Source of the DNA: Luteimonas fraxinea
Lineage (GTDB): Bacteria > Pseudomonadota > Gammaproteobacteria > Xanthomonadales > Xanthomonadaceae
DNA: 64,000 nt
Direction: 5' to 3'
NCBI RefSeq assembly: GCF_021233355.1
Contig: NZ_CP089507.1
Coordinates: 1,302,001 to 1,366,000, forward strand
In this document: piece after piece, positions 14,377 to 50,020 of the stretch
Layout: every line of letters begins with the position of its first letter
How positions within the stretch are numbered: the first letter of the stretch is position 1
Position numbers and translations under genes: made by a program
Notes under the pieces: generated by a model
Seen by the model: only the letters and a program-made list of their open reading frames with translations
Database searches by the model: none
What the model was told of the DNA's origin: nothing

Positions 14377-15134
14377 ATGCCACCGCCACCGCCTGCTACC
14401 GCGCGACCCAGACCGGCTCGCCGGCGGACATCGTCGAGCGTCATGGCGAGCTGGTGCGCCGCATCGCCCACCACCTCGCCGCGCGGCTGCCGCCCAGCGT
14501 CGAGATCGAGGATCTCGTGCAGGCCGGCATGCTCGGCCTGATCGACGCGGCGCGGAACTACCAGTCCCATCCCGGCGCGACCTTCGAGACCTATGCATCG
14601 ATCCGCATACGCGGCGCGATGATCGACGAGATGCGGCGCGGCGACTGGACCCCGCGTTCGGTGCACCGCGGCTATCGCGACATGATCGCCGCCGTGCGCG
14701 CGATCGAGCAGGAGACCGGACGCAGCGCGGTACCCGCGCAGATCGCCGCGCACATGGAGATCACCCTCGACGAGTACCACCGCATGGTCGAGGACGTCGC
14801 CCGCGGCCAGCTGACCAGTTTCGACGCGCACCTGGAAGAACACGACGGCGAGGCCCGCCTCGCGGTCCGTGATTCCGCCAGCCCCGCGCGCGCCTTCGAG
14901 GACGACGCCTTCCGCGTCGCCCTGGTCGAAGCCATCGAAGGCCTGCCCGAACGCGAAGCGCTGGTGCTGTCGCTGTACTACGAACAGGAACTCAACCTGC
15001 GCGAGATCGGCGCCGTGCTGTCGGTCAGCGAATCACGCGTCTCGCAGATCCACGGCCAGGCCATGGTCCGCCTGCGCGCCCGCATGTCGGACTGGAAGCG
15101 GGATCCGGACAGATTCGACGACGGGCGGGATTGA
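14373..15134 (+). CDS. fliA: Flagellar sigma factor FliA (sigma-28)
   Basis: The product has 253 residues from an ATG overlapping the flhG stop. Region 2 includes HLAARLPPSVEIEDLVQAGM and ASIRIRGAMIDEMRRGDW. Region 4 includes LPEREALVLSLYYEQELNLR and SVSESRVSQIHGQAM. FliA drives late flagellar genes such as flagellin and chemotaxis and is held by FlgM. It is the last gene before a 0.6-kb repeat-containing gap. Confidence 0.96.
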   Translation: MNATATACYRATQTGSPADIVERHGELVRRIAHHLAARLPPSVEIEDLVQAGMLGLIDAARNYQSHPGATFETYASIRIRGAMIDEMRRGDWTPRSVHRGYRDMIAAVRAIEQETGRSAVPAQIAAHMEITLDEYHRMVEDVARGQLTSFDAHLEEHDGEARLAVRDSASPARAFEDDAFRVALVEAIEGLPEREALVLSLYYEQELNLREIGAVLSVSESRVSQIHGQAMVRLRARMSDWKRDPDRFDDGRD

Positions 15135-17437: not shown

Positions 17438-18223
17438 GTGCGGGTGTGGGCGATCGCGAACCAGAAGGGCGGCGTCGGCAAGACGACGACCACGCTGTGC
17501 CTGGCGCGCAACCTCGCCGACGACGCCCGCGTGCTGGTGGTCGATCTCGATCCGCATGCGTCGCTGACCCGCGCCTTCGGCGTGCCGCGCCAGCCGCCGC
17601 CGATCGGCACGCATGAAGTCTTCGTCGCGCAGACGCCATCGCTCGATGGACTGTCGCGCACCACCGCGATCGAACGTCTGCGCCTGGTCGCCGCGCAGCC
17701 TGCACTCGCTACGCTCGAACGCCGCAGCGCGACCCAGCCCGGCCTCGGCATGGCCTTGCAGCGCGCGCTTGGTGGCGTGTCCGAACTCTATGACCACGTG
17801 CTGCTGGACTGTCCGCCGACGCTGAGTCTGCTGATGGTCAATGCACTGGCTGCCGCCGACTGCCTCGTCATGCCGACCCAGACCGATCCGCTGGCGCTGC
17901 ACGGTCTCGCCGACATGCTGCGCACCGCCGACATGGTCGAACGGTCGCGCAAGCGGCCGTTGATGCGCGCGATCCTGCCGACGCTCTACGACGGCCGCAC
18001 CGGCAGCGGCCGCCAGAGTCTGGAACATCTCTACGCCGGCTACGAAGGCCTGGTGTGGTCGGATGCGATTCCGGTCGACACCCGTCTGCGCGATGCGCGC
18101 AGCATCGCCGGCAATGGCCCGTTGACCGGCCGCGGCGCCGAGGCTTACCGCAGTGCGCTGGCCTGGCTGCACACGCGCATGGCCGCCGCCGTCCCCGACG
18201 ACAGCGCCGCAGTCGCCGCATGA
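17438..18223 (+). CDS. ParA-family ATPase next to motCD (ParC-like, chemotaxis-array positioning)
   Basis: The product has 261 residues from the GTG 1 nt after the motD stop. The N terminus RVWAIANQKGGVGKTTTTLC contains the deviant Walker A box of ParA/Soj ATPases. LLDCPPTLSLLMVNAL is the Walker B region. ParA proteins encoded beside motCD in Pseudomonas (PA1462) and Vibrio place chemoreceptor arrays at the cell pole and partition them at division. Neither ParP nor CheW follows here, so the partner is elsewhere. The assignment to array positioning rests on context. Confidence 0.85.
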   Translation: MRVWAIANQKGGVGKTTTTLCLARNLADDARVLVVDLDPHASLTRAFGVPRQPPPIGTHEVFVAQTPSLDGLSRTTAIERLRLVAAQPALATLERRSATQPGLGMALQRALGGVSELYDHVLLDCPPTLSLLMVNALAAADCLVMPTQTDPLALHGLADMLRTADMVERSRKRPLMRAILPTLYDGRTGSGRQSLEHLYAGYEGLVWSDAIPVDTRLRDARSIAGNGPLTGRGAEAYRSALAWLHTRMAAAVPDDSAAVAA

Positions 18224-39646: not shown

Positions 39647-40237
39647 CTATTCGACGCGGGTCGCGTCGGGCACGCGCGCCGGATCGCCGGCCGACTGCGG
39701 CACGCGGCGGATCAAGGAGAGGTCGTAGCCGAGTCCGCGGATGCGTTCCATGTGCGCCGCGTAGTCCGCGTCGGAGATCACCGGCGTCCGCGCCATCAGC
39801 CACACGTAGTCGCGCTTGCTGCGGCCGACGATGGTCTGCTGGTAGTCGTCGTCGACGTAGACGATCACGTACTCGGCCTTGATCGGCCACACGAACTGCA
39901 TGCCCCAGATCGCATTGCCGGTGCCTTCGCGCACGGTGCCGGTCGGGTGCAGCGTCTTGATCTTCTCGTCGAAGCCGCCGTCGCGATAGCGGAACGTCGT
40001 GTCGACCTTGCCGTCCTCGCGCAGCGTGTAGGTTTCGACGGAATCGAAGGCTTCTTTCTCGAGACGCGTCGGGATCTGCGCGATCACGTACCAGTCGCCC
40101 ATGAAACGGGGGACGTCGACATGTGCGACCGGGGGAATCTGTTCCTTCACGTTGCCGCCTCCACAGGCCGCGAGCATGCCGGTGGCGATGCCCGCGAGAA
40201 TCAGGCCAGCGGCAAACCGCCGGTTCGAAGTCGCCAT
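39647..40237 (-). CDS. blc: Outer-membrane lipocalin Blc
   Basis: The product has 196 residues from the ATG at 40237. A lipoprotein signal ends GMLAAC (Cys24). The lipocalin signature is FMGDWYVIAQIPTRLEKEAF, followed by the FRYRDGGFDEK strand, NAIWGMQFVWPIKAEYVIVY and the last segment DYVWLMARTPVISDADYAAH. Blc binds lysophospholipids or fatty acids and is stress-induced in E. coli. It lies 37 nt behind the CFA-type gene, which suggests it is the seventh gene of the lipid operon. Confidence 0.92.
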   Translation of the reverse strand: MATSNRRFAAGLILAGIATGMLAACGGGNVKEQIPPVAHVDVPRFMGDWYVIAQIPTRLEKEAFDSVETYTLREDGKVDTTFRYRDGGFDEKIKTLHPTGTVREGTGNAIWGMQFVWPIKAEYVIVYVDDDYQQTIVGRSKRDYVWLMARTPVISDADYAAHMERIRGLGYDLSLIRRVPQSAGDPARVPDATRVE

Positions 40238-40274
40238 GAAACCCCTCCTGCCGTGAGTACGGCGTCGGTCGCGG

Positions 40275-41357
40275 TCAGCCCGCGCGTGCAAACCGGTAAT
40301 GCGCGACCAGCCACTGCTGGCCACGCTCGTATCCGAACAGTTCCGCGCAGGACATCCAGAACATCCGCCAGCGCTGGAACCACAGCTTCGCACCGTCACG
40401 TCCATAGGCCTGCTCCAGCACGCGCATCACCGCGTCGCGGTTGCGGTCCTGGTTGGCGAGCCAGTGGTTCGACGTCTTTTCGTAATGCGTGCCGTCGAGC
40501 AACCAACGCTGTTCGATGCCCAGATCGCCCTGCTGGAAATGCAGCAGCGTGTCCGCCGCCGGCATCAGGCCACCGGTGAAGAAATGCCGCCCCATCCAGT
40601 TGTCTTCGCCGGCCGTCTCATAGGGATACATCAGCGTGCGGTGCGCGAAGATGTGCACGAACAGCTTGCCGCCGGGGCGCAGCCACGTGCCGATGCGCGT
40701 CATCAGGATCTGGTAATTGCGCATGTGCTCGAACATCTCGATCGACACCACGCGGTCGAAGGCTTCGGTGTCGAGCTCGAGCTGGTTCACGTCGCAGGTG
40801 ATCACCCGCACGTTGCTGAGACCACGCGCCTTGCACTGCGCTTCGATGTGCAGACGCTGCGGCCGCGAGTTCGAGACCGCCGTGATGCGCGCCCCGGGAA
40901 AGTGCTCGGCCATCCACAGCGTCAGCGAACCCCAGCCGCAACCGAGCTCGAGGATGTCCTGCCCATCGGCCAGCTCGGCGCGCGCGCCGTACAGCGCGAG
41001 CATCGCGTCTTCGGCTTCGTCGAGCGTCTCGTTGCCGGTCGGGTAGTAGCAGCTGCTGTATTTGAAGCGGCGCCCGAGGCATAGCGCGAAGAATTCCGGC
41101 GGCAGCTCGTAGTGCTGGGTGTTGGCGGCATCGGTGTGGATGGCGACTGGACTGGTGCGCAGCGACTGCAGCAGCGTGTCGAAGCGCGTCGACTGCGCTT
41201 CCACGCTGCCTTCGGCTTCTTCGGCCAGACGCTGCGCGCACAGGCGGCGGATGCCGAGGCGCAGCGCCGCGTCAGGCACCAGACCCCGCTCGGCCATGCC
41301 GATCAGGCCGGGCGCGGCGGAGTCGCGTTCGAGTTCGGGGCGGGCCACGGCATTCAT
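40275..41357 (-). CDS. CFA-synthase-family SAM methyltransferase (second copy)
   Basis: The product has 360 residues from the ATG at 41357, in a 4-nt overlap with the DUF1295 gene. The SAM-binding motif is ILELGCGWGSLTLWMAEHFP, preceded by QHYELPPEFFALCLGRRFKY and SSCYYPTGNETLDEAED. IEMFEHMRNYQILMTRIGTW corresponds to the CFA active-site region, with EDNWMGRHFFTGGLMPAADT after it. It is closer to the short, non-canonical CFA-like branch than to E. coli Cfa and lacks the N-terminal lipid-binding domain. It may add a methyl or methylene group to an unsaturated acyl chain; the product is not known. Confidence 0.85.
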   Translation of the reverse strand: MNAVARPELERDSAAPGLIGMAERGLVPDAALRLGIRRLCAQRLAEEAEGSVEAQSTRFDTLLQSLRTSPVAIHTDAANTQHYELPPEFFALCLGRRFKYSSCYYPTGNETLDEAEDAMLALYGARAELADGQDILELGCGWGSLTLWMAEHFPGARITAVSNSRPQRLHIEAQCKARGLSNVRVITCDVNQLELDTEAFDRVVSIEMFEHMRNYQILMTRIGTWLRPGGKLFVHIFAHRTLMYPYETAGEDNWMGRHFFTGGLMPAADTLLHFQQGDLGIEQRWLLDGTHYEKTSNHWLANQDRNRDAVMRVLEQAYGRDGAKLWFQRWRMFWMSCAELFGYERGQQWLVAHYRFARAG

Positions 41358-42160
41358 GCGGAAGGTCCTTCGGGGTCGGAACGGGCGGATTCGGAGCGGG
41401 GAAACCACGGAAACAGCATCGGTGTAGTGCGCTGGTAGTCGCGGTAGTCGTCGCCGCGCGAGCGCAGCGCCTGCTGCTCGGTGTAGGGGATGCCGCTGAC
41501 GTAGCGCAGGAACAGATACATCAGCACCGGCCCGACCAGCGCCAGCCACCACAGCGGCGAGCCCGCGGCCAGCACGACATAGGTCAGCCAGTGCAGCCAT
41601 TCGAAGAAGTAGTTCGGATGGCGCGAATACCGCCACAGGCCTTCGCGACAGGTCTTGCCGCGGTTCGCCGGGTCGGCGCGGAAGTCGGCGAGCTGGCGGT
41701 CGGCGACTGCTTCACCGCCGACACTGATCAGCCACACCGCGATTGCGGCGAGCAGACCGAGCGAGGACACCGGGTTGGTCGCAACGGCGAGGAACGGCAG
41801 CGCGAACAATGCGACCAGCAGCGCCTGGGCCTGGAAGAACAGGAAGAACTTACGCTGGTCGCCGTGCCAGTGCTTGCGCAGGTAGGCGTAACGGCCGTCT
41901 TCGTCTTCGCTGCCGACGCGCTTCCACAGATGCGCGGCCAGACGCAGGCCCCACAGCCCGCCGAGCACGGCGAGCAGGATCCTCGGCAGCATCGCGCCAT
42001 CGCCGAGCAGTGCGACCACGATGGCCGCGCCGCCGACACCACATGCCCAGACCACGTCGACGATGCCGGCGTTGTCGCGCGCCTTCTGCCAGCGCCATGC
42101 GCCGGTCATCGCGATCGCGGCGAGCGCCCAGACCAGCATCAGCGTCCAGAGCGGGCTCAT
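41354..42160 (-). CDS. DUF1295 membrane protein (steroid 5-alpha-reductase/isoprenylcysteine methyltransferase-like)
   Basis: The product has 268 residues from the ATG at 42160, overlapping the cfa stop by 4 nt. Several membrane helices are followed by the C-terminal signature GLWRYSRHPNYFFEWLHWL and GIPYTEQQALRSRGDDYRDY, typical of DUF1295. Members are thought to reduce or methylate lipid-like substrates, and they recur beside CFA synthase and DUF1365 genes in proteobacteria. The exact reaction is unknown. Confidence 0.88.
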   Translation of the reverse strand: MSPLWTLMLVWALAAIAMTGAWRWQKARDNAGIVDVVWACGVGGAAIVVALLGDGAMLPRILLAVLGGLWGLRLAAHLWKRVGSEDEDGRYAYLRKHWHGDQRKFFLFFQAQALLVALFALPFLAVATNPVSSLGLLAAIAVWLISVGGEAVADRQLADFRADPANRGKTCREGLWRYSRHPNYFFEWLHWLTYVVLAAGSPLWWLALVGPVLMYLFLRYVSGIPYTEQQALRSRGDDYRDYQRTTPMLFPWFPRSESARSDPEGPSA

Positions 42161-43401
42161 GACGCCATCGCCCGCACGTGGCCCGGCTTGCCGAACAGCA
42201 GGTGCGATACGCCGATCGAGCGCTCGCGGAACCCGCCTTCGCAGTAGGCGAGATAGAAGGTCCACATGCGCTCGAAGCGTGCGTCGAAACCCTGCTTGCG
42301 CACGTCGGACAGACGCGACAGAAAGCGCTCACGCCAGATCTGCAGCGTGCGGGCGTACGAGGGACCGAAGTCGTCCTGCTGCAGCAGTTGCAGATCGCTG
42401 GCTGCGGTCTTGGCCTGGAGCATCGCCGAGATCGACGGAATGAAACTGCCTGGGAAGATGAAGCGCTTGATGAAGTCCACCGAATCGCGCGCCTGCGCGT
42501 AGCGGTGGTCTTCGATCGTGATCGCCTGCACCAGTGCGGCACCGTCCGGCTCGAGCAGACTGCCGAGCTTGCCGAAGTAGGTCTCCAGATACTGCGCGCC
42601 GATCGCTTCGATCATCTCGATCGACACCAGCTTGTCGTAGGTGCCGTCGAGATCGCGATAGTCCTGCAGCAGCAGCGTCACCCGATCCTGCAAGCCGGCC
42701 TCGGCGATCCGCGCGCTCGCCAGCGCGTGTTGCTCGCGCGAGATCGTGGTCGTGGTGACGTGGCAGCCGTAGTGCTGCGCCGCATGCAGCGCAAAGCCGC
42801 CCCAGCCGGTGCCGATCTCGATCACCCGATCACCGGGCCGCAGCGCCAGCCGTTCGCAGATGCGATCGAGCTTGCGGGTCGATGCGGTTTCCAGCGTGTC
42901 ACCGTCGCGCTCGAACAGCGCGGACGAATACATCAGGTCGGGCGAGAGGAACAGCGAGAAGAAATCGTTGCCGAGGTCGTAATGCGCGGCGATGTTGCGG
43001 CGGCTGCCGTCGCGCGTGTTCCGGCGCAGCGCGTTCCAGCCGCGCATCGCCAGACCGCCGAGGCGCGCGATGCCGGTTTCCATGCCGTCAAGCAGATCGC
43101 GATTGCGCACCAGCAAACGCACCAGGCCGACGAGATCGTCGCTGTCCCAATGGCCTTCCATATAGGACTCGCCCGCACCGACGCTGCCGTTGGCGGCGAC
43201 CAGCCGGTAGAACGCGGGATCGTGCACGCGTACCTGTACCGGGCGCAGTTGAGCGTCGCCGAAGGTCTCGCTGCCGAGCGCATCGTCGAGCCGCAACGCG
43301 CCGCCCTGCATCTGTGCGAACTGGGCGACGAGCCGTGTGCGCAGCGTGCGTTCGAGCGCGCCGAACGCACGCGGCGTCGCATGGGCGGCGATCTGGTTCA
43401 T
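42157..43401 (-). CDS. cfa: Cyclopropane-fatty-acyl-phospholipid synthase
   Basis: The product has 414 residues from the ATG at 43401, overlapping the DUF1365 stop. The N-terminal lipid-binding domain includes [20 protein letters not shown]. The methyltransferase domain has [47 protein letters not shown] and [17 protein letters not shown], all intact. The enzyme adds a methylene group from SAM to cis double bonds of membrane phospholipids. It is the canonical of the two CFA-type enzymes in this operon. Confidence 0.93.
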
Positions 43402-44213
43402 CGGAAAGGCTCCTGTTCGGCGCCCGGCAGGCGCGGATGGTCGTGCACCGGGTTGCGCTTGAGCCACAGACGCAGCGCCTGCCAGTGGATCGCGGCGACG
43501 ACCTGCACGGTCATCAGTGGGTAGCGCCACAGCACGCGCGCCAGAGAGGCCGCGTCCAAGGGTCGCCGCTGCAGCGTCATGGTGGCGTCGAATTCGCGCA
43601 CGTCTTCGCGCAACACATCCATGTGAATGTGCAGATCCTCCACCGGCGGTGTCAGCCGCCAGCGGTAGCCGTGATCCATCGCCATGAACGGCGACACATG
43701 GAACGCCTTGGCGAAATCCCACTGCAGGGCGCGGCCATGACGCTCGGCGTCCGCGGCCGGCAGCACGTAGGCGTGGCGTTCCTTCCACGGCGTATTGGTG
43801 ATCTCGGCGACGATGCAGTCAAGCGTCGTGCCGTCGGCGCGGTAGCAGTAGTAGAAGCTCACCGGATTGAAGACGAATCCGAAGTAGCGCAGATGCGTCA
43901 GCAGCCGGATCGGACCTGCAGGCCTGCGCCCGAGCGCGGCTTCGACGCGCATACGCACGGCTTCGGCGAGCGGCACATCGGTCGGACCCAGATAATCGGA
44001 GCGGCGGAACCGGGCCAGCGCGGGGCGCCGGGTCGACCACAGCCAGCGACCGTCGAAAACACGATCGAGCTCGTCGAGATCCAGCCACAGCTGCGCGACG
44101 CGATACGAGAATTCATGCGGCACCGGATGGTACCGGCGATGGCGCACCACGCCTTCGTAGACCGCGCTCTGCAGCGGTGCGACGTGGTCGGCGCGATCGC
44201 CATCGCCGCTCAT
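43398..44213 (-). CDS. DUF1365 family protein
   Basis: The product has 271 residues from the ATG at 44213, overlapping the FAD oxidoreductase gene. The family is recognised by [20 protein letters not shown] at the start, [20 protein letters not shown] in the middle and [17 protein letters not shown] later. The function is unknown. It is almost always encoded between an FAD oxidoreductase and a CFA synthase, as here, so it very likely takes part in the same fatty-acyl modification. Confidence 0.93.
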
Positions 44214-45511
44214 GCGACTGCGCTCACCGGCATCGGCGTCGACTGCGCGCGGCCGGCGGCCGCCAGCGGCCCGAGACCGAATGCACGCGCGACCTGTGCT
44301 GCGCTGCGGATGCCGTCTTCGTGGAAGCCCCAGCCCCAGTACGCACCGGCGTACCAGGTGTGACGCTGGCCCTGGATCTCCTCGCGCCGACCCTGCGCGG
44401 CCACCATCGCCGCGTCGTAGACCGGATGCGCGTAGCGCATGCGCGCGATCACTTTCGCAGGATCGATCGCATCGCTGCGGTTGAGCGTGACCACCAGCGG
44501 TTCGGGTGTGTCGAGGCTCTGCAGCTGGTGCATGCAGTAACTCACCGTGCACGCGGCATTGGGCGTCGCCGGCACGTGCGCGTTCCATGCCGCCCAGGCC
44601 TTGGGGTCGCGCGGCAGCAGACGCGCATCGGTATGCAGCACGGTCTCGTTGGTCTGGTAGCGGATCGCGCCAAGGATGTCGCGCTCGGCGCCATCGGCAT
44701 CGTCGAGCAGCGCCAGCGCCTGGTCGCTGTGGCAGGCCAGCACGATCTGGTCGAAACGCTCGCTGCCCGCCGCGGACGCCACATGCACGCCGGCTGCATC
44801 CCGACGCACCGCATCGACCCGGCAGCCGACGCGCTCGGTCACCGACCAGCGTGCGCGCAAGGCATCGATATAACGCGACGAGCCGCCACGCACCACGCGC
44901 CATTCCGGGCGCCCGGTCAGCTGCAGCATGTGGTGGTTGGCCATGAACTGGACGAGGTAGCGCGCCGGAAACTCGAGGATGCCGGCGCTCGGCGACGACC
45001 ATAGCGCCGACGCCATCGGCACCAGATGCAGATCGCGGAACGCGTCGCCGTAGCGGTTGGCCTGCAGGTACTCGCCGAGCGTCGGCCCGGCGTCATCGCC
45101 GTCGAGCAGCGCCGGCGCCTCGCGATAGAAGCGCTTGAGGTCGCGCAACATGCCCCAGAACCGCGGCGACAGCAGATTGCGGCGCTGGCAGAACAGCGTG
45201 TCGAGCGAGGTCGCGTTGTACTCCAGGCCGTCGGCCTCGTTGTGCACCGAGAAGCTCATCGTCGTCGGCTGCGACGCGACATCCAGCGATTCGAACAACC
45301 CGCTCAGCAGCGGATAGTGCTGCGGATTGAACACGATGAAACCGGTGTCGACCGCGTACTCGCGTCCTGCCATCTGCACGGCATGCGTATGCGTGTGACC
45401 GCCGAGGCGCGTGTCGGCTTCGAACAGCGTCACCGCATGGCGCTGCGACAGCCACCACGCAGTGGCGAGCCCGGCGATGCCCGAACCGACGACGGCGATG
45501 CGCTGGCTCAT
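44210..45511 (-). CDS. NAD(P)/FAD-dependent amine-oxidase-like oxidoreductase of the CFA/DUF1365 cluster
   Basis: The product has 433 residues from the ATG at 45511, overlapping the desaturase stop by 4 nt. The N terminus [20 protein letters not shown] is a Rossmann FAD-binding motif, followed by [32 protein letters not shown] and [17 protein letters not shown] are recurrent in this group. Enzymes of this branch lie in operons that modify unsaturated phospholipid fatty acids, including one that makes furan fatty acids in Rhodobacter. A desaturation or dehydrogenation step is therefore plausible; this is inference. Confidence 0.88.
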
Positions 45512-46461
45512 CCGCGTGCCTTCTCGTGCACCCATGCGGGCACCGGCTTGAGGTCACGCACCAGACCGACCCACGACATAGCCTTGAGGCCATACCAGGT
45601 CAGATCGATCTCCCACCAGCGGAAGCCCTGACGCACGGTGCCGGGGAAGAAGTGATGGTTGTTGTGCCAGCCCTCGCCGAAGGTCAACAGCGCCAGCCAG
45701 ATGTTGTTGCGGCTGTCGTCGCCGGTCTCGAAGCGCTGGCTGCCGAAGCGATGCGACAGCGAGTTGATCGTCACCGTCGCGTGGAACAGCACGGTGGTGG
45801 AGATGAAGAAACCCCAGATCAGCATCTGCCCGCCCGTGGTGCCGAGGCCCGGCGCGACGCGCTCGAGCAGTGCGCCCAGACCGAACAGGCCGACCGCAAG
45901 CAGCACCGGAATCAGCGTGTCGAAACGATCGAGCCAGCGCAATTCTGGAAATTTCGCCAGATCGGGAATGCGCGACCAGTCGGTGCGGAAGCCTTCGCGG
46001 GTCAGGAACCAGCCCATGTGGCTCCACCAGAAGCCGTGCACACGCGGCGAGTGCGGATCGAGTGGGGTTTCGGTGTGGCGGTGATGATTGCGATGGTGCG
46101 CCGCCCACCACAGCGGACCGCGCTGCACGCAGGATGCACCGATCAGCGCAAAGACGAACTGGACGACACGCGACGTGCGGAAGGTGCGGTGCGAGAAGTA
46201 GCGGTGGTAGAAACCTGTCAGCGCGAACATGCGGATCGCGTACAGCGCGACCGCGACGATCACCGCGATCGGCGACACTCCGACCCAGAACACCAGCAGA
46301 CAGGCGAGATGCATCGCCACGAACGGCGTCGCGCGCAGCCAGTCGATCCGGTCGTCGCCTTCGCGCACTTCGTTCGCCTGGGCGCCGGTATCGAACCAGC
46401 GGCCCAGACTCGCGCGCAATGTGCGGGCACCGGTCGCGTTGCGGCCGGAATCGCTCGACAT
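45508..46461 (-). CDS. Acyl-CoA/acyl-lipid delta-9-type fatty acid desaturase
   Basis: The product has 317 residues. The three histidine boxes of the membrane di-iron desaturases are present: [19 protein letters not shown] and [10 protein letters not shown]. Four hydrophobic segments match the family topology, and [14 protein letters not shown] residues close the core. It would introduce cis double bonds into acyl chains, supplying substrate for the downstream CFA-type enzymes. It is the first gene of the lipid operon, 31 nt behind a candidate ECF -10 box. Confidence 0.93.
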
Positions 46462-46491
46462 GGGGAACTCCTGCGGGTGTGACTGTCAGGA

Positions 46492-46519
46492 AATACGCGC
46501 GGACGTGAAAAACGGATGC
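46492..46519 (-). promoter_or_regulatory. Candidate ECF-sigma promoter of the lipid-modification operon
   Basis: Read on the minus strand: GCATCC (-35), 16 nt, CGTATT (-10), then 30 nt to the desaturase ATG. The same -35 with CGTA at 16-17 nt stands at the matching distance ahead of the sigma-factor operon (48887-48915). The -35 core CATCC resembles that of SigK/RskA-type systems. Control by the adjacent ECF factor is inferred from this coincidence. Confidence 0.6.
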
Positions 46520-46597
46520 ATGCGATGCGCATGCGTTCACCGTCTCGATGGTCAGGCGCGGACGCGCGGCGGCCTGTGGCCGCCACGCGTGGGTGAA

Positions 46598-47392
46598 TCA
46601 GATGCGCAATGCGCCGCTCGCGACCACGGGCCCGGTCGGTGCGCCATCCGGCGCGCCACCCGGCGGCTCCAGCGACACTGCCAGCGTGGCGCCTGCGATC
46701 AGCGCCGCATGCAGTTCCGCCGGCACCTCGACGGCGCGCGTGCGGTCGTGCGGCAGCAGGCCGAGCGACGCCGGCGCGCCGCCTTCCGGAATCAACCACA
46801 GCTCGGCGACGCGGCCTTCGGCATCGACATCCGCCGGCAGCGGTACGACGAGCACGCGGCCATGCGCGGCATCGACCGAGGCGAGCCACGCCGGCGAGCC
46901 GTCTTCGTGCGCGAGCGTGGTGACCGGGAGGGCCTCGGCGGCGGGTGCAGGCGTGGGCGTGGGGATCGGCGTCGGCGCGACGACCACCGGCACCTCGCGC
47001 GCGTCGTCGTCGACCGGCACACGGCCGACGAGCACTGCGACGATCGCGACGACCGCCGCCAATGCCGTGGCGCCGCGCCAGAAACCGGTGCTGTGCCAGA
47101 GGCCTTCGGGCTTCGCGGCCACGGGTGTCCAGCCAAGCGCGGTGCGGATACGCGGCCACACATGCGCAGGCACGTCGGCGGTCGGAAATTCGGCGAACCA
47201 GGGCGCAAGCCGCAGATCCCACTCGGCGACCAGACGTGCGAAGCCCGGATCGCGTGCGATGCGTGCCTCGGCCGCTGCACGCGCCTGCGCGTCGAGCACG
47301 CCCAGCACGTACTCGCCGGCGAGCAGATCCGCGCGCGGCGGCTCGGGACCGCCGTCGTCGTCGATGTCGAAGTCGGGATCGCGCACGTTCAT
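46598..47392 (-). CDS. RskA-like transmembrane anti-sigma factor
   Basis: The product has 264 residues from the ATG at 47392 in a 4-nt overlap with the sigma gene. The cytoplasmic domain (residues about 15-90) has LLAGEYVLGVLDAQARAAAE, the anti-sigma start. One membrane helix (about residues 107-127, ATALAAVVAIVAVLVG) and a Pro/Thr linker precede a periplasmic RskA-type domain with VAELWLIPEGGAPASLGLLP. It should hold the adjacent ECF factor at the membrane until released by proteolysis. No zinc-binding HxxxCxxC motif is visible. Confidence 0.88.
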   Translation of the reverse strand: MNVRDPDFDIDDDGGPEPPRADLLAGEYVLGVLDAQARAAAEARIARDPGFARLVAEWDLRLAPWFAEFPTADVPAHVWPRIRTALGWTPVAAKPEGLWHSTGFWRGATALAAVVAIVAVLVGRVPVDDDAREVPVVVAPTPIPTPTPAPAAEALPVTTLAHEDGSPAWLASVDAAHGRVLVVPLPADVDAEGRVAELWLIPEGGAPASLGLLPHDRTRAVEVPAELHAALIAGATLAVSLEPPGGAPDGAPTGPVVASGALRI

Positions 47393-47958
47393 GGCTCCAG
47401 GCATGTCCGCAGCTGCAGCAGCCCGCGGCGGATCCAGCTCTTCACCGATCCCAATGGCGAACCCACGCGCTGCGCGAGTTCTTCGTAGGTCGCGCCGTCG
47501 AAGAACGCGGCGCGGATCAGGCGGCGGCGTCGCGGCTCCAACGTCTCGAAACAGGTGTCCAGACGCGAACGGTCACCGGCGCGCTCTGTCGATTCCAGCG
47601 GCGTTTCACCGTCGTCCGGCATCGCCTCGATCAGTTCGACCGGCGCGAGCTGGTGCTGCGGACGCGCACGCAGGCGGTCGATCGCGGTGTTGCGGGCGAT
47701 CGTCGCCAGCCAGGTCGTCGCCGCGGCGCGCGCGGGATCGAACTGCGCGGCCTTGCGCCAGATGCGCACGTACACGTCCTGCAGGGCGTCTTCGGCTTCT
47801 TCGCGGTCGTGCAGCACACGGATGCACACGCCGAGCAGGCGCGATGCACTGGCGCGATACAGCGATTCGAAAGCGCGCTGGTTGCCGTCGGCGACCTGTG
47901 CCAGCCAGACGTCGAGGCCGGGTTCGGTCGCAGTTGCGGTCGCATCGTGCTGTGGCAT
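47389..47958 (-). CDS. ECF RNA polymerase sigma factor (SigK/RskA-associated type)
   Basis: The product has 189 residues from the ATG at 47958; the frame is open further and starts at 47994 or 48084 cannot be excluded. Region 2 includes AFESLYRASASRLLGVCIRV and DALQDVYVRIWRKAAQFDP. Region 4 includes LEPRRRRLIRAAFFDGATYE and LGSVKSWIRRGLLQLRTCL. There is no SnoaL-like or other extra domain. It is translationally coupled to its anti-sigma gene. It most likely drives its own operon and the lipid operon through the shared promoter motif. Confidence 0.9.
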   Translation of the reverse strand: MPQHDATATATEPGLDVWLAQVADGNQRAFESLYRASASRLLGVCIRVLHDREEAEDALQDVYVRIWRKAAQFDPARAAATTWLATIARNTAIDRLRARPQHQLAPVELIEAMPDDGETPLESTERAGDRSRLDTCFETLEPRRRRLIRAAFFDGATYEELAQRVGSPLGSVKSWIRRGLLQLRTCLEP

Positions 47959-48071
47959 CCGGCGCGCGAATCCCGGGAAGTGATGGACCGCCATCCTCAC
48001 CGGCGCCCGCCGTTCGCGCAAGCGCGATCGTGCGATCCGGTGGCCGCGACCCGTTCGCAGGTGGACGGGCA

Positions 48072-48857
48072 TCAGGTGCTGCATCGGCCGCTCAACGGGT
48101 CTTCGAGCGCAGCCGCGACTTCGCTTGCGGCAACGGCGCGCGGCGCCTGCGCGGGGAACACGATGCGCACGTCGCGCGGCTTGCCGCGCGCGTCGCGGAC
48201 CGTGCCGGGACCGGCGAATTCGCGCAGCCGCTTGTCGTCCAGGCCGTAACGCAGCTCGATCGGCGGCACCGCGAAGCCGAACCAGCGGTCGACCGACATG
48301 CGCAGCTGGCGCATGCCATCGGCGTCACCGACTTTCGCCACGCGCACCGGCATGAACGCGAAGCGCTCGGGCAGCAGGAACGACAGCCGCTGCGGCGCAT
48401 CGCCCAATGCAGCCCAGTGCGTGCGCACCGCGGCATCGAAACCGGCATCGATCACCGCATCGTCGGCAGCCGGCAACGCGGCGGTCCGCGGCGCGCCTTC
48501 GCCACGCTGGACGAAGATCTCGCGTTTCCCATCGCGCGTGCGCACGCCTTCGCGATAGCCGCTGCGGGCGTCATGGAACGCAAAGTCCGGCTGCGTGGCG
48601 TTGACCTGCGCGCGCACGATCTTGCGCGCGAACGCGGCGCCATCCGGGCAGCGGTACAGCACCACGCGCCTGGCGACGTCGCCGTCACGGTCCTGGTAAT
48701 GCACTTCCCGATACAGCAGCCGGCCATCGTCGCGTGCCAGCGCCCGCGCCTCTTCGCGCTCGGCGGCCGCCAGCGGAAACGCTGCGAACAGACACGCGAG
48801 CAGCGCAACGAAGACCGTGCGCGCCGCAACGACACGTTCGGCAGCGGGCAATGACAT
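48072..48857 (-). CDS. Secreted protein of unknown function, first gene of the sigma-factor operon
   Basis: The product has 261 residues. An N-terminal signal peptide (VFVALLACLFAAFPLAAAE) suggests periplasmic location. The rest is soluble, mixed alpha/beta, with DGRLLYREVHYQDRDGDVAR near the start and a single Cys pair (positions in YRCPDG and near the C terminus). I do not recognise a named domain. The gene stands immediately behind the candidate ECF promoter and ahead of sigma and anti-sigma, so it may sense or respond to the envelope stress they monitor. Confidence 0.7.
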   Translation of the reverse strand: MSLPAAERVVAARTVFVALLACLFAAFPLAAAEREEARALARDDGRLLYREVHYQDRDGDVARRVVLYRCPDGAAFARKIVRAQVNATQPDFAFHDARSGYREGVRTRDGKREIFVQRGEGAPRTAALPAADDAVIDAGFDAAVRTHWAALGDAPQRLSFLLPERFAFMPVRVAKVGDADGMRQLRMSVDRWFGFAVPPIELRYGLDDKRLREFAGPGTVRDARGKPRDVRIVFPAQAPRAVAASEVAAALEDPLSGRCST

Positions 48858-48886
48858 GGGCGACTCCCGTGTTGAGGTTCACGGGA

Positions 48887-48915
48887 CGTACGCCGGCAGT
48901 GCGTGGCGCGGATGC
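48887..48915 (-). promoter_or_regulatory. Candidate ECF-sigma promoter of the sigma/anti-sigma operon
   Basis: On the minus strand: GCATCC (-35), 17 nt, CGTACG (-10), then 29 nt to the ATG at 48857. The -35 hexamer with its next base (GCATCCG), the CGTA core and the leader length match the desaturase-operon promoter at 46492-46519. Two matching sites at the two operon starts suggest autoregulation. Confidence 0.6.
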
Positions 48916-48922
48916 AGTCGGT

Positions 48923-50020
48923 TCAGCGCGCGTCCACGGCCTGCCGCGCGAGCGCGGGGTCGTCGGCGAACAGACCATCGACGCCGGCATCGAGGAACGC
49001 GCGCATCTCGGCGATCGCGCCGGCCTCGTTGCGCGCATTGGCGCCGCCACTGCGCAAGCTCCGCGGCAGATACGGATTCTCGGGACGGAACGTGTACGGC
49101 ATGACCTGCAGGCCGGCAGCGTGTGCATCGGCGATCAATGTCGTTCCCTCGAACCGGCCGCCGCGTCCGACCTCGCCGATTTGCGACTTGTGCGGCCCGA
49201 GCAGCGACGCGTATGCCGCGATCGCGCGCAGGCCGTCCACGGCAAGCATGTCGCGGTAACGCAGATCGCCGCCGGCGGCGTCGACATCCGCCGGTTTCAC
49301 ACGCGGATCGCCGATCAGTTGCAGCAGGCGCAGATCGGGCAACACCGGCGCGGCGATGTCGCGCAGCGTGCGCAGGCTGGTCGGCTCGAACGACTGCACG
49401 ACCAGCGGCACGCGCGTGGCCACCTCGTGCTTCGCGAACACATCGATCACTGCCTGCTCCATCGGCAGCCTGATCGTGCGGAAGTGCGTCGGATGCTTGA
49501 TCTCCGGAATCAGGCCGACGTTGCGGCCCGAGTCGCGCAACAGATCGTCGAGCAGCACCATGATCTCGTGCAGCGTGGGCACCGCGAACTGGCGGTCGTA
49601 CCAGACACCGCGCAGCGCCGGCAACGGTTCGCGTGCGCGCAGCGTCTTCAGTTCGGCAAGAGTGAAATCTTCGGTGAACCAGCCGGTGACGTCGCTGCCA
49701 TCGATGCGCTGGGTGCGCTTGCGATCGGCGAACTGCGGATGCAACGCGACATCGGTGGTGCCGCCGATCTCGTTCTCGTGGCGCGCGACCAGCACGCCGT
49801 CGCGGGTCATCACCAGATCGGGTTCGATGAAATCCGCGCCGTCCTCCACCGCGCGGCGATACGCCGCCAGCGTGTGCTCGGGCATGCGCGCACTCGCGCC
49901 GCGATGGGCGATCACGCGCGGCGCTTCGGCAGCGGGTGTGGCGGCGGAAGCGGCGTGATCAGGCAGGGTCATGGCGGCGGTGGCGATCAGCAATGACAGC
50001 AGGCAGCGCAGTGGTGACAT
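48923..50020 (-). CDS. glpQ: Periplasmic glycerophosphodiester phosphodiesterase (GlpQ type)
   Basis: The product has 365 residues with a signal peptide cleaved near HAASAATP. The GDPD catalytic region is [20 protein letters not shown] followed by [20 protein letters not shown]; His, Arg, Glu and Asp of the metal site are intact. The length and [13 protein letters not shown] insert match periplasmic GlpQ. It splits glycerophosphodiesters from phospholipid turnover into glycerol-3-phosphate and alcohols. It stands next to the lipid regulon but has no visible copy of its promoter. Confidence 0.9.

Follow-up and report, generated by a model that had tools for sequence, protein, structure and literature searches.

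We describe here a pair of promoter-like motifs in a 64,000-nucleotide stretch of Luteimonas fraxinea DNA (contig NZ_CP089507.1, positions 1,302,001 to 1,366,000; referred to as the window), one ahead of an operon of lipid-modifying genes and the other ahead of a neighbouring operon that encodes an extracytoplasmic function (ECF) sigma factor and its anti-sigma factor. With a probability of roughly 80%, this adjacent SigK-like sigma factor, paired with an RskA-like anti-sigma factor, drives both promoters of one small ECF regulon, which would include the operon for cyclopropane- or furan-type fatty acids. The strong evidence for the boxes, drawn from sequence comparison, is their position-specific conservation in relatives.

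Motif 1 (GCATCC-N16-CGTA, 46494-46519, minus strand; the full match is GCATCCG followed by CGTA) is the candidate promoter of the lipid operon, and motif 2 (GCATCC-N17-CGTA, 48889-48915, minus strand) is the candidate promoter of gene A and the sigma and anti-sigma genes. From the 3' end of CGTA to the ATG there are 32 nt at motif 1 (ATG at 46461) and 31 nt at motif 2 (ATG at 48857). The first-pass annotation had described GCATCCG paired with CGTA at a spacer of 16-17 nt, and the pair was found at both sites (N16 and N17 when counted after GCATCC), although the coordinates given for the boxes were 2 bases too long. Motif 2 had been placed ahead of the sigma/anti-sigma operon; it does lie upstream, but gene A (261 aa, 48857-48072) comes first, and the sigma gene, if its start is at 47958, begins 113 nt past the end of gene A. 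No sigma-70-type promoter was found in a scan of 45400-49100.

The spacing of the boxes was compared in 47 loci of the family (706 kb), which were picked for a relative of the sigma factor and include the window. There were 63 matches at a spacer of 16 nt and 0-6 at any other length from 6 to 27 nt, while the reversed control gave 1 match at spacer 16. The same length prevailed when 80 named loci, drawn from many phyla and fetched with the desaturase, were counted: 35 matches fell at 16 nt, 6 at 17 nt and 0-5 elsewhere. This peak agrees with the earlier claim that the motifs are ECF-type promoters. That claim had been staked on conservation in orthologous loci, and relatives keep the boxes ahead of the desaturase and gene A and also ahead of the two types of sigma gene described below.

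The distribution of the boxes was then related to two regulatory modules in a family sample of 149 genomes. Relatives of the window sigma factor were present in 44 genomes at E 6.5e-47 or better, followed by a gap to 2e-32. Full-length ChrR, the anti-sigma factor of the ECF11 sigma factors, was present in 22: 20 above the cut-off, together with G081 and G104, in which two partial matches jointly cover most of the model. The desaturase was found in 79 of the 149 genomes and 76 loci were read (G049 and G135 were not fetched, and the fetched G143 locus was without the desaturase). Counting a box when GCATCC-N16-CGTA lay within 260 nt of the desaturase, it was present in 21/27 genomes with the RskA-type system only, in both genomes with the two systems and in 19/20 with ChrR only, the remaining one having GGATCC. 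It was present in none of 13 genomes with neither sigma system nor a weak cupin match, and in none of the 14 that had a weak cupin match alone; five of these have spacer 17, a length also used by six Marinobacter loci. Genomes with either sigma system and those with none therefore differ as 42/49 to 0/27, which is descriptive only: because the no-sigma genomes are mostly one clade (25 of the 27, by their lipid genes), the contrast reflects few independent events, nearly one. Its use as independent proof was dropped, as the tree of desaturase and oxidase offers just 2 independent pairs when limited to well-supported branches, or 3 when every branch is counted, too few for a test.

The boxes also accompany the regulators. 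Gene A, where it is present, is preceded by a spacer-16 box in 14/15 RskA-only and 8/9 ChrR-only loci. Among 33 loci with the RskA-type sigma gene and no gene A, 20 carry GCATCC-N16-CGTA and 3 carry GAATCC-N16-CGTA within 420 nt of the sigma gene; of the 10 without a box, 2 are cut by contig ends. Boxes precede the sigma gene in 9 of 16 copies of the RskA-type pair from genomes without a desaturase match, which fits a requirement for autoregulation. In the 22 ECF11 loci of the family, GCATCC is found in 17, GAATCC or GGATCC in 3 (one of them in this genome) and neither in 2; these counts exclude look-alikes below 50 bits (L242, L247, L258 and L259, which have no box) and a second weak match in L096. 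Outside the family, three ECF11 loci (L147, L157, L173) carry TGATCC-N16-CGTA, the form reported as the consensus of a related Pseudomonas syringae factor (PMC5507510), and no box was found in L141 and L160. RskA-type pairs away from the desaturase were found near genes for DUF4331 proteins (L048, L056, L060) or aldehyde dehydrogenases (L065, L069) when 10 neighbouring open reading frames (ORFs) were scanned, which suggests other regulons for this sigma group.

The window sigma factor (47389-47958, minus strand; 189 aa) has regions 2 and 4 only (Sigma70_r2 at residues 33-99, Sigma70_r4_2 at 132-183), and its best PDB match is SigK (4nqw, E 2.4e-29), followed by Rhodobacter sphaeroides RpoE. 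As the score against the NCBIfam SigK model PRK09646 is below the cut-off (148.4 of 226 bits), it is called SigK-like and not SigK; the best NCBIfam model, PRK12534, is also below its cut-off (208.1 of 267 bits). The anti-sigma gene (47404-46598, minus strand) overlaps the sigma gene (47958-47389), and its product passes the Pfam RskA_C cut-off (PF10099, 72.7 vs 29.4 bits), shows one hydrophobic stretch by eye and falls below the cut-off of the general NCBIfam anti-sigma model (80.4 of 100). At the place compared with the AS19-1 anti-sigma helix motif, HTLAGAYALDAL (PMC7406223), it reads LLAGEYVLGVLD by eye. The possibility that the pair itself is an ECF11-ChrR system was ruled out, since the neighbouring anti-sigma factor is of the RskA_C and not the ChrR type.

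The genome (G000) does contain an ECF11-ChrR pair. Its sole match to the ChrR model, at C1:757904-758542, lies beside another ECF factor, remote from the window; the pair spans C1 ~757.9-759.3 kb (L096:12896-14337) and its own promoter is GAATCC-N16-CGTA. A same-strand ORF (L096:11774-12880) comes after it. Motif 1 fits the ECF11-type promoter ATCC-N16-CGTA, in the family form GCATCC-N16-CGTA, and motif 2 differs by its spacer of 17. The promoter of SigK is CCATCC-N16/17-CCGAAT; the CATCC core of the -35 box agrees with the window boxes, whereas the -10 box in the window is CGTA and not CCGAAT. The core had been noted as one known for SigK/RskA-type factors, but it is not specific to them because genomes with ECF11-ChrR use the same boxes and ECF11 controls an operon of this kind in Stenotrophomonas maltophilia. 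One lead on the choice of -35 box, which is not a test of it, is the residue after VKS/IKS/MKS in the recognition helix. This is W in the RskA-type sigma factors that were read, except for the distant L144, L145 and L149, which have a differing motif. In the ECF11 factors of the family (L224 and L271 were left out of this reading), GCATCC goes with H, N, T or S at this residue and GAATCC or GGATCC goes with T or S; ECF11 factors with TGATCC have R.

One alternative is that the lipid operon is driven solely by the remote ECF11-ChrR pair, with the adjacent RskA-type sigma factor having other targets. In S. maltophilia, control of the corresponding operon (smlt2375-2367) by the ECF11 factor RpoEc of rpoEc-chrR-chrA is experimental (PMC11832516), and in the one RNA-seq run of Table 1 in that paper the operon is 165- to 697-fold up without ChrR; the promoter also persists in G119, a genome with ChrR only. 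This explanation is nevertheless unlikely. The box is kept in 21 of the 27 RskA-only genomes, a group in which no full-length ChrR was found, and the sigma/anti-sigma pair adjoins the lipid operon in 23 of these 27 genomes. The full-profile scores of the window sites also favour the RskA type.

These scores come from a position profile built from 54 RskA-only and 48 ChrR-only sites over 42 positions, after removal of 3 duplicate sites, and tested by leaving whole genera out. It sorted 82 of the 102 sites correctly, compared with a mean of 53 and a maximum of 71 in 200 permutations. Motif 1 scored +4.31 and motif 2 between +1.8 and +4.7, depending on the spacer base omitted, both RskA-like, and the genome's own ECF11 site scored -9.53 (ChrR-like). 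A score of +4.31 was reached by 24/54 RskA-only sites and by 1/48 ChrR-only sites. For sites outside the training set with the desaturase beside an RskA-type pair, 6/8 were positive, and two untrained single-system loci scored -7.3 (Frateuria terrea, ChrR only) and +2.7 (Oleiagrimonas, RskA-type only). The eight best positions, chosen from the same data, sorted 83/102. Taken as a whole, the profile favours the adjacent sigma factor as the reader, though ECF11 may read the boxes as well. The earlier claim that this sigma factor reads both sites is thus supported by the position of the pair beside the operon and by the boxes ahead of sigma genes, but this factor need not be the sole reader, as genomes with ECF11 share the boxes.

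A narrower form of the favoured explanation is that motif 1, and perhaps also motif 2, is read by both sigma factors, with two signals converging on the lipid operon as a result. This we regard as possible but somewhat doubtful. The two systems coexist in this genome, in G019, in Stenotrophomonas rhizophila and in a Rhodanobacter metagenome-assembled genome, and ECF11 is itself preceded by GCATCC-N16-CGTA in the 17 family loci mentioned above. On the other hand, the ECF11 site of this genome is GAATCC, with its strongly ChrR-like score, while the window sites lean towards RskA. The two systems also occur together in 2/149 family genomes, which is rarer than chance (Fisher p 0.02, and p 0.0008 among the 79 desaturase genomes; kinship uncorrected). 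A search of 16 named genomes gave 7 with the sigma factor at the same level, 8 with ChrR above the cut-off and 2 with both, namely S. rhizophila (L104), where the RskA-type pair lies by the operon and ChrR elsewhere, and the Rhodanobacter genome (L105); Stenotrophomonas sepilia has ChrR.

The regulator appears to have been exchanged while the promoter stayed. On a quick tree of the desaturase and the oxidase, no fewer than 7 changes are required to account for the RskA-only and ChrR-only labels, and well-supported branches force 3 changes per label. Four genera (g16, g17, g29, g46) hold both kinds among the desaturase genomes. The clearest example comes from one genus: G019 and G119 share ~92% identity on both flanks of a 1.7-kb stretch that carries a promoter, the sigma gene and the anti-sigma gene in G019 and corresponds to 17 bases in G119; the 26-base desaturase promoter is identical in the two. 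As the G019 cassette is flanked by two promoter copies of one kind, it could plausibly have been lost or gained through these repeats, in either direction.

It is conceivable, although we put it at slightly under even odds, that one promoter acts as a common socket for the unrelated ChrR (ECF11) and RskA-like (SigK-like) modules, which would have been swapped repeatedly with the core unchanged, and that in genomes with both modules, this one included, two stress signals converge on one membrane-lipid response. To judge from the listings searched, a change of regulator within one family while promoter and operon are conserved is new; no report of an RskA-type sigma factor controlling this operon in Xanthomonadaceae was found among the matches listed in the open-licence literature (titles and abstract starts). 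If the socket reading holds, the sensor of a stress response would be replaceable while the promoter and enzymes stay. The G019/G119 pair and the two-module genomes could then show which signal triggers the lipid change and whether two sigma factors whose promoters are almost alike interfere or cooperate. It would also be a warning that promoter boxes alone cannot assign a regulon.

Several observations count against control of both promoters by the adjacent SigK-like sigma factor. In relatives these boxes also serve ECF11-ChrR, and G119 keeps the identical desaturase box with ChrR present and no RskA-type sigma factor at the level used. The desaturase box is missing in 6 of the 27 RskA-only genomes, of which 4 keep the gene A box and 2 (G096, G122) have the sigma gene elsewhere. 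Two loci with an adjacent RskA-type pair, L115 and L138, score ChrR-like (-4.9 and -6.0), and with the eight best positions the window sites score -0.17 and -2.31, which is undecided or an opposite lean. The spacer of motif 2 has only one other match of 17 nt in the 47 family loci, and the gene A sites of relatives carry spacer 16. Genome-wide, the loose pattern GCATCCG-N14..19-CGTA is not enriched (23 matches vs 29 for the reversed pattern), and the strict GCATCC-N16-CGTA (8 vs 2 reversed in 4.0 Mb) shows no excess over the family background, where the means per Mb are 2.28 in 85 genomes with neither sigma factor, 3.35 in 42 with RskA only, 3.85 in 20 with ChrR only and 1.97 in the 2 with both, one of which is this genome.

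These genome-wide counts speak for a rival reading, in which the boxes are due to chance or motif 1 belongs only to an adjoining terminator-like hairpin. The hairpin, followed by ATCCGTTTTT (46518-46534, minus strand), shares, in its 3' arm, the two leading bases of motif 1; the stability for 46505-46545 is -15.2 kcal/mol (z -2.85), and 1 terminator-like site was seen in 45400-49100 compared with 1.9 in shuffles. Such an origin of the boxes is very improbable given the spacer-specific conservation across genera at the starts of the desaturase gene, of gene A and of the two types of sigma gene. Within the window, the loose pattern has 3 matches against 0.22 expected, and at least 3 occurred in 1/100 shuffles; the third match, at 18041-18066, falls within ORFs. 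The first-pass annotation had proposed a motif scan of the genome and its relatives, and it is the relatives' loci, not the genome, in which the boxes stand out. Taken by itself, the tally in this genome is no proof, because 8 sites in 4.0 Mb are not above the mean of genomes with neither sigma factor, and site lists alone give no regulon because of that same background of the strict form. The loose pattern was dropped as a genome-wide regulon finder, as its matches do not exceed those of the reversed pattern.

Under control by the adjacent sigma factor, the RskA-like anti-sigma factor would hold the SigK-like sigma factor at the membrane, to be released by an envelope or oxidative signal. The freed sigma factor, which we infer binds both boxes, would transcribe gene A, its own gene and the anti-sigma gene from motif 2, resulting in positive autoregulation, and the desaturase, amine oxidase, DUF1365, cyclopropane-fatty-acid-synthase-type (CFA), DUF1295, second CFA and lipocalin genes from motif 1. 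If the hairpin is functional, it separates gene A and the sigma and anti-sigma genes from the lipid unit, and expression of the lipid genes would then rest on motif 1. The enzymes would then modify unsaturated acyl chains, probably yielding cyclopropane, methylated or furan fatty acids, and the remote ECF11-ChrR pair may feed the same promoters too.

All genes of the lipid cluster are on the minus strand and follow this order: the fatty acid desaturase (45508-46461, PF00487), an amine oxidase family protein dependent on flavin adenine dinucleotide (FAD) (44210-45511, PF01593; UfaD-like as judged from family and neighbours), the UfaO-like DUF1365 protein (43398-44213, PF07103, 292.7 bits), the first CFA methyltransferase (42157-43401, PF02353, 275.2 bits), the DUF1295 protein (41354-42163, PF06966, 237.7 bits), the second CFA methyltransferase (40275-41636, PF02353, 126.8 bits; its true start is internal to the ORF) and the lipocalin (39647-40240, PF08212, 144 bits). 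By domain content, the furan fatty acid pathway trio of CFA-type methylase, amine-oxidase-family desaturase and DUF1365 protein (PF02353, PF01593, PF07103) appears to be present in one cluster. The window DUF1295 ORF overlaps the end of the CFA gene (41354-43401), and many relatives have ~600 nt between the two. This gap could hold one small gene, for which one of the hypothetical proteins smlt2369 and smlt2370 of S. maltophilia is a candidate. Gene A (48072-48857, minus strand) has an N-terminal hydrophobic segment, a signal peptide by eye, and matches nothing in Pfam or NCBIfam at E 0.001; its product is predicted to be a LolA/RseB/DUF1849-like beta half-barrel (mean predicted local distance difference test score 90.2, with fold matches).

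Among known systems, the corresponding S. maltophilia operon has the same gene order as the window: periplasmic protein, desaturase, FAD oxidoreductase, hypothetical protein, CFA synthase, two hypothetical proteins, CFA synthase and lipocalin, as given in PMC11832516. Of the two hypothetical proteins listed there between the CFA genes, one is without a window counterpart. The S. sepilia locus (L111) encodes counterparts of the window proteins with 38-77% identity behind the same boxes. The regulators differ: that of S. maltophilia is described as a divergent ECF11 with ChrR (PMC11832516), whereas the window has the SigK-like sigma factor and RskA_C anti-sigma factor between gene A and the desaturase.

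The SigK-RskA system of Mycobacterium tuberculosis (ECF19) provides the closest solved sigma factor and an RskA_C anti-sigma factor, as in the window. We take Rv0449c-Rv0444c to encode an amine oxidase, a DUF1365 protein, a CFA-type enzyme, a DUF1295 protein, SigK and RskA; the window adds the desaturase, gene A, the second CFA gene and the lipocalin, and its -10 box is CGTA. Autoregulation of sigK via the Rv0449c promoter is described in PMC7509140. In R. sphaeroides, ECF-driven UfaD (RSP_1091, termed a flavin amine oxidase in PMC5507510), UfaO with DUF1365 (RSP_1090) and the methylase UfaM (RSP_2144) make furan fatty acid (PMC7380195, PMC7074977). Its RpoE-ChrR system, with RSP_1087-1091 and RSP_2144, has a ChrR-type anti-sigma factor, unlike the RskA_C of the window (PMC7380195, PMC7074977), and a separate membrane desaturase, which the window has, is not listed for RSP_1087-1091 in Table 1 of PMC7074977. 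In Rhodobacter capsulatus, a SigK/RskA-like pair (rcc00699/00698) is reported to occupy the place of RpoE-ChrR and to be induced by singlet oxygen, with UfaD/UfaO homologues given as absent (PMC7074977), whereas the window keeps the lipid operon and differs in the regulator.

A second sigma gene is present within the window, with a sigma-70 region 2 match at 14430-14651 (plus strand, 65.8 bits). Elsewhere the genome has two more spacer-16 sites near possible starts: C1:1748732-1748757 is upstream of a frame that resembles an alpha/beta hydrolase by eye, with a possible start close downstream, and C1:2378450-2378475 has a possible ATG start 60 nt downstream.

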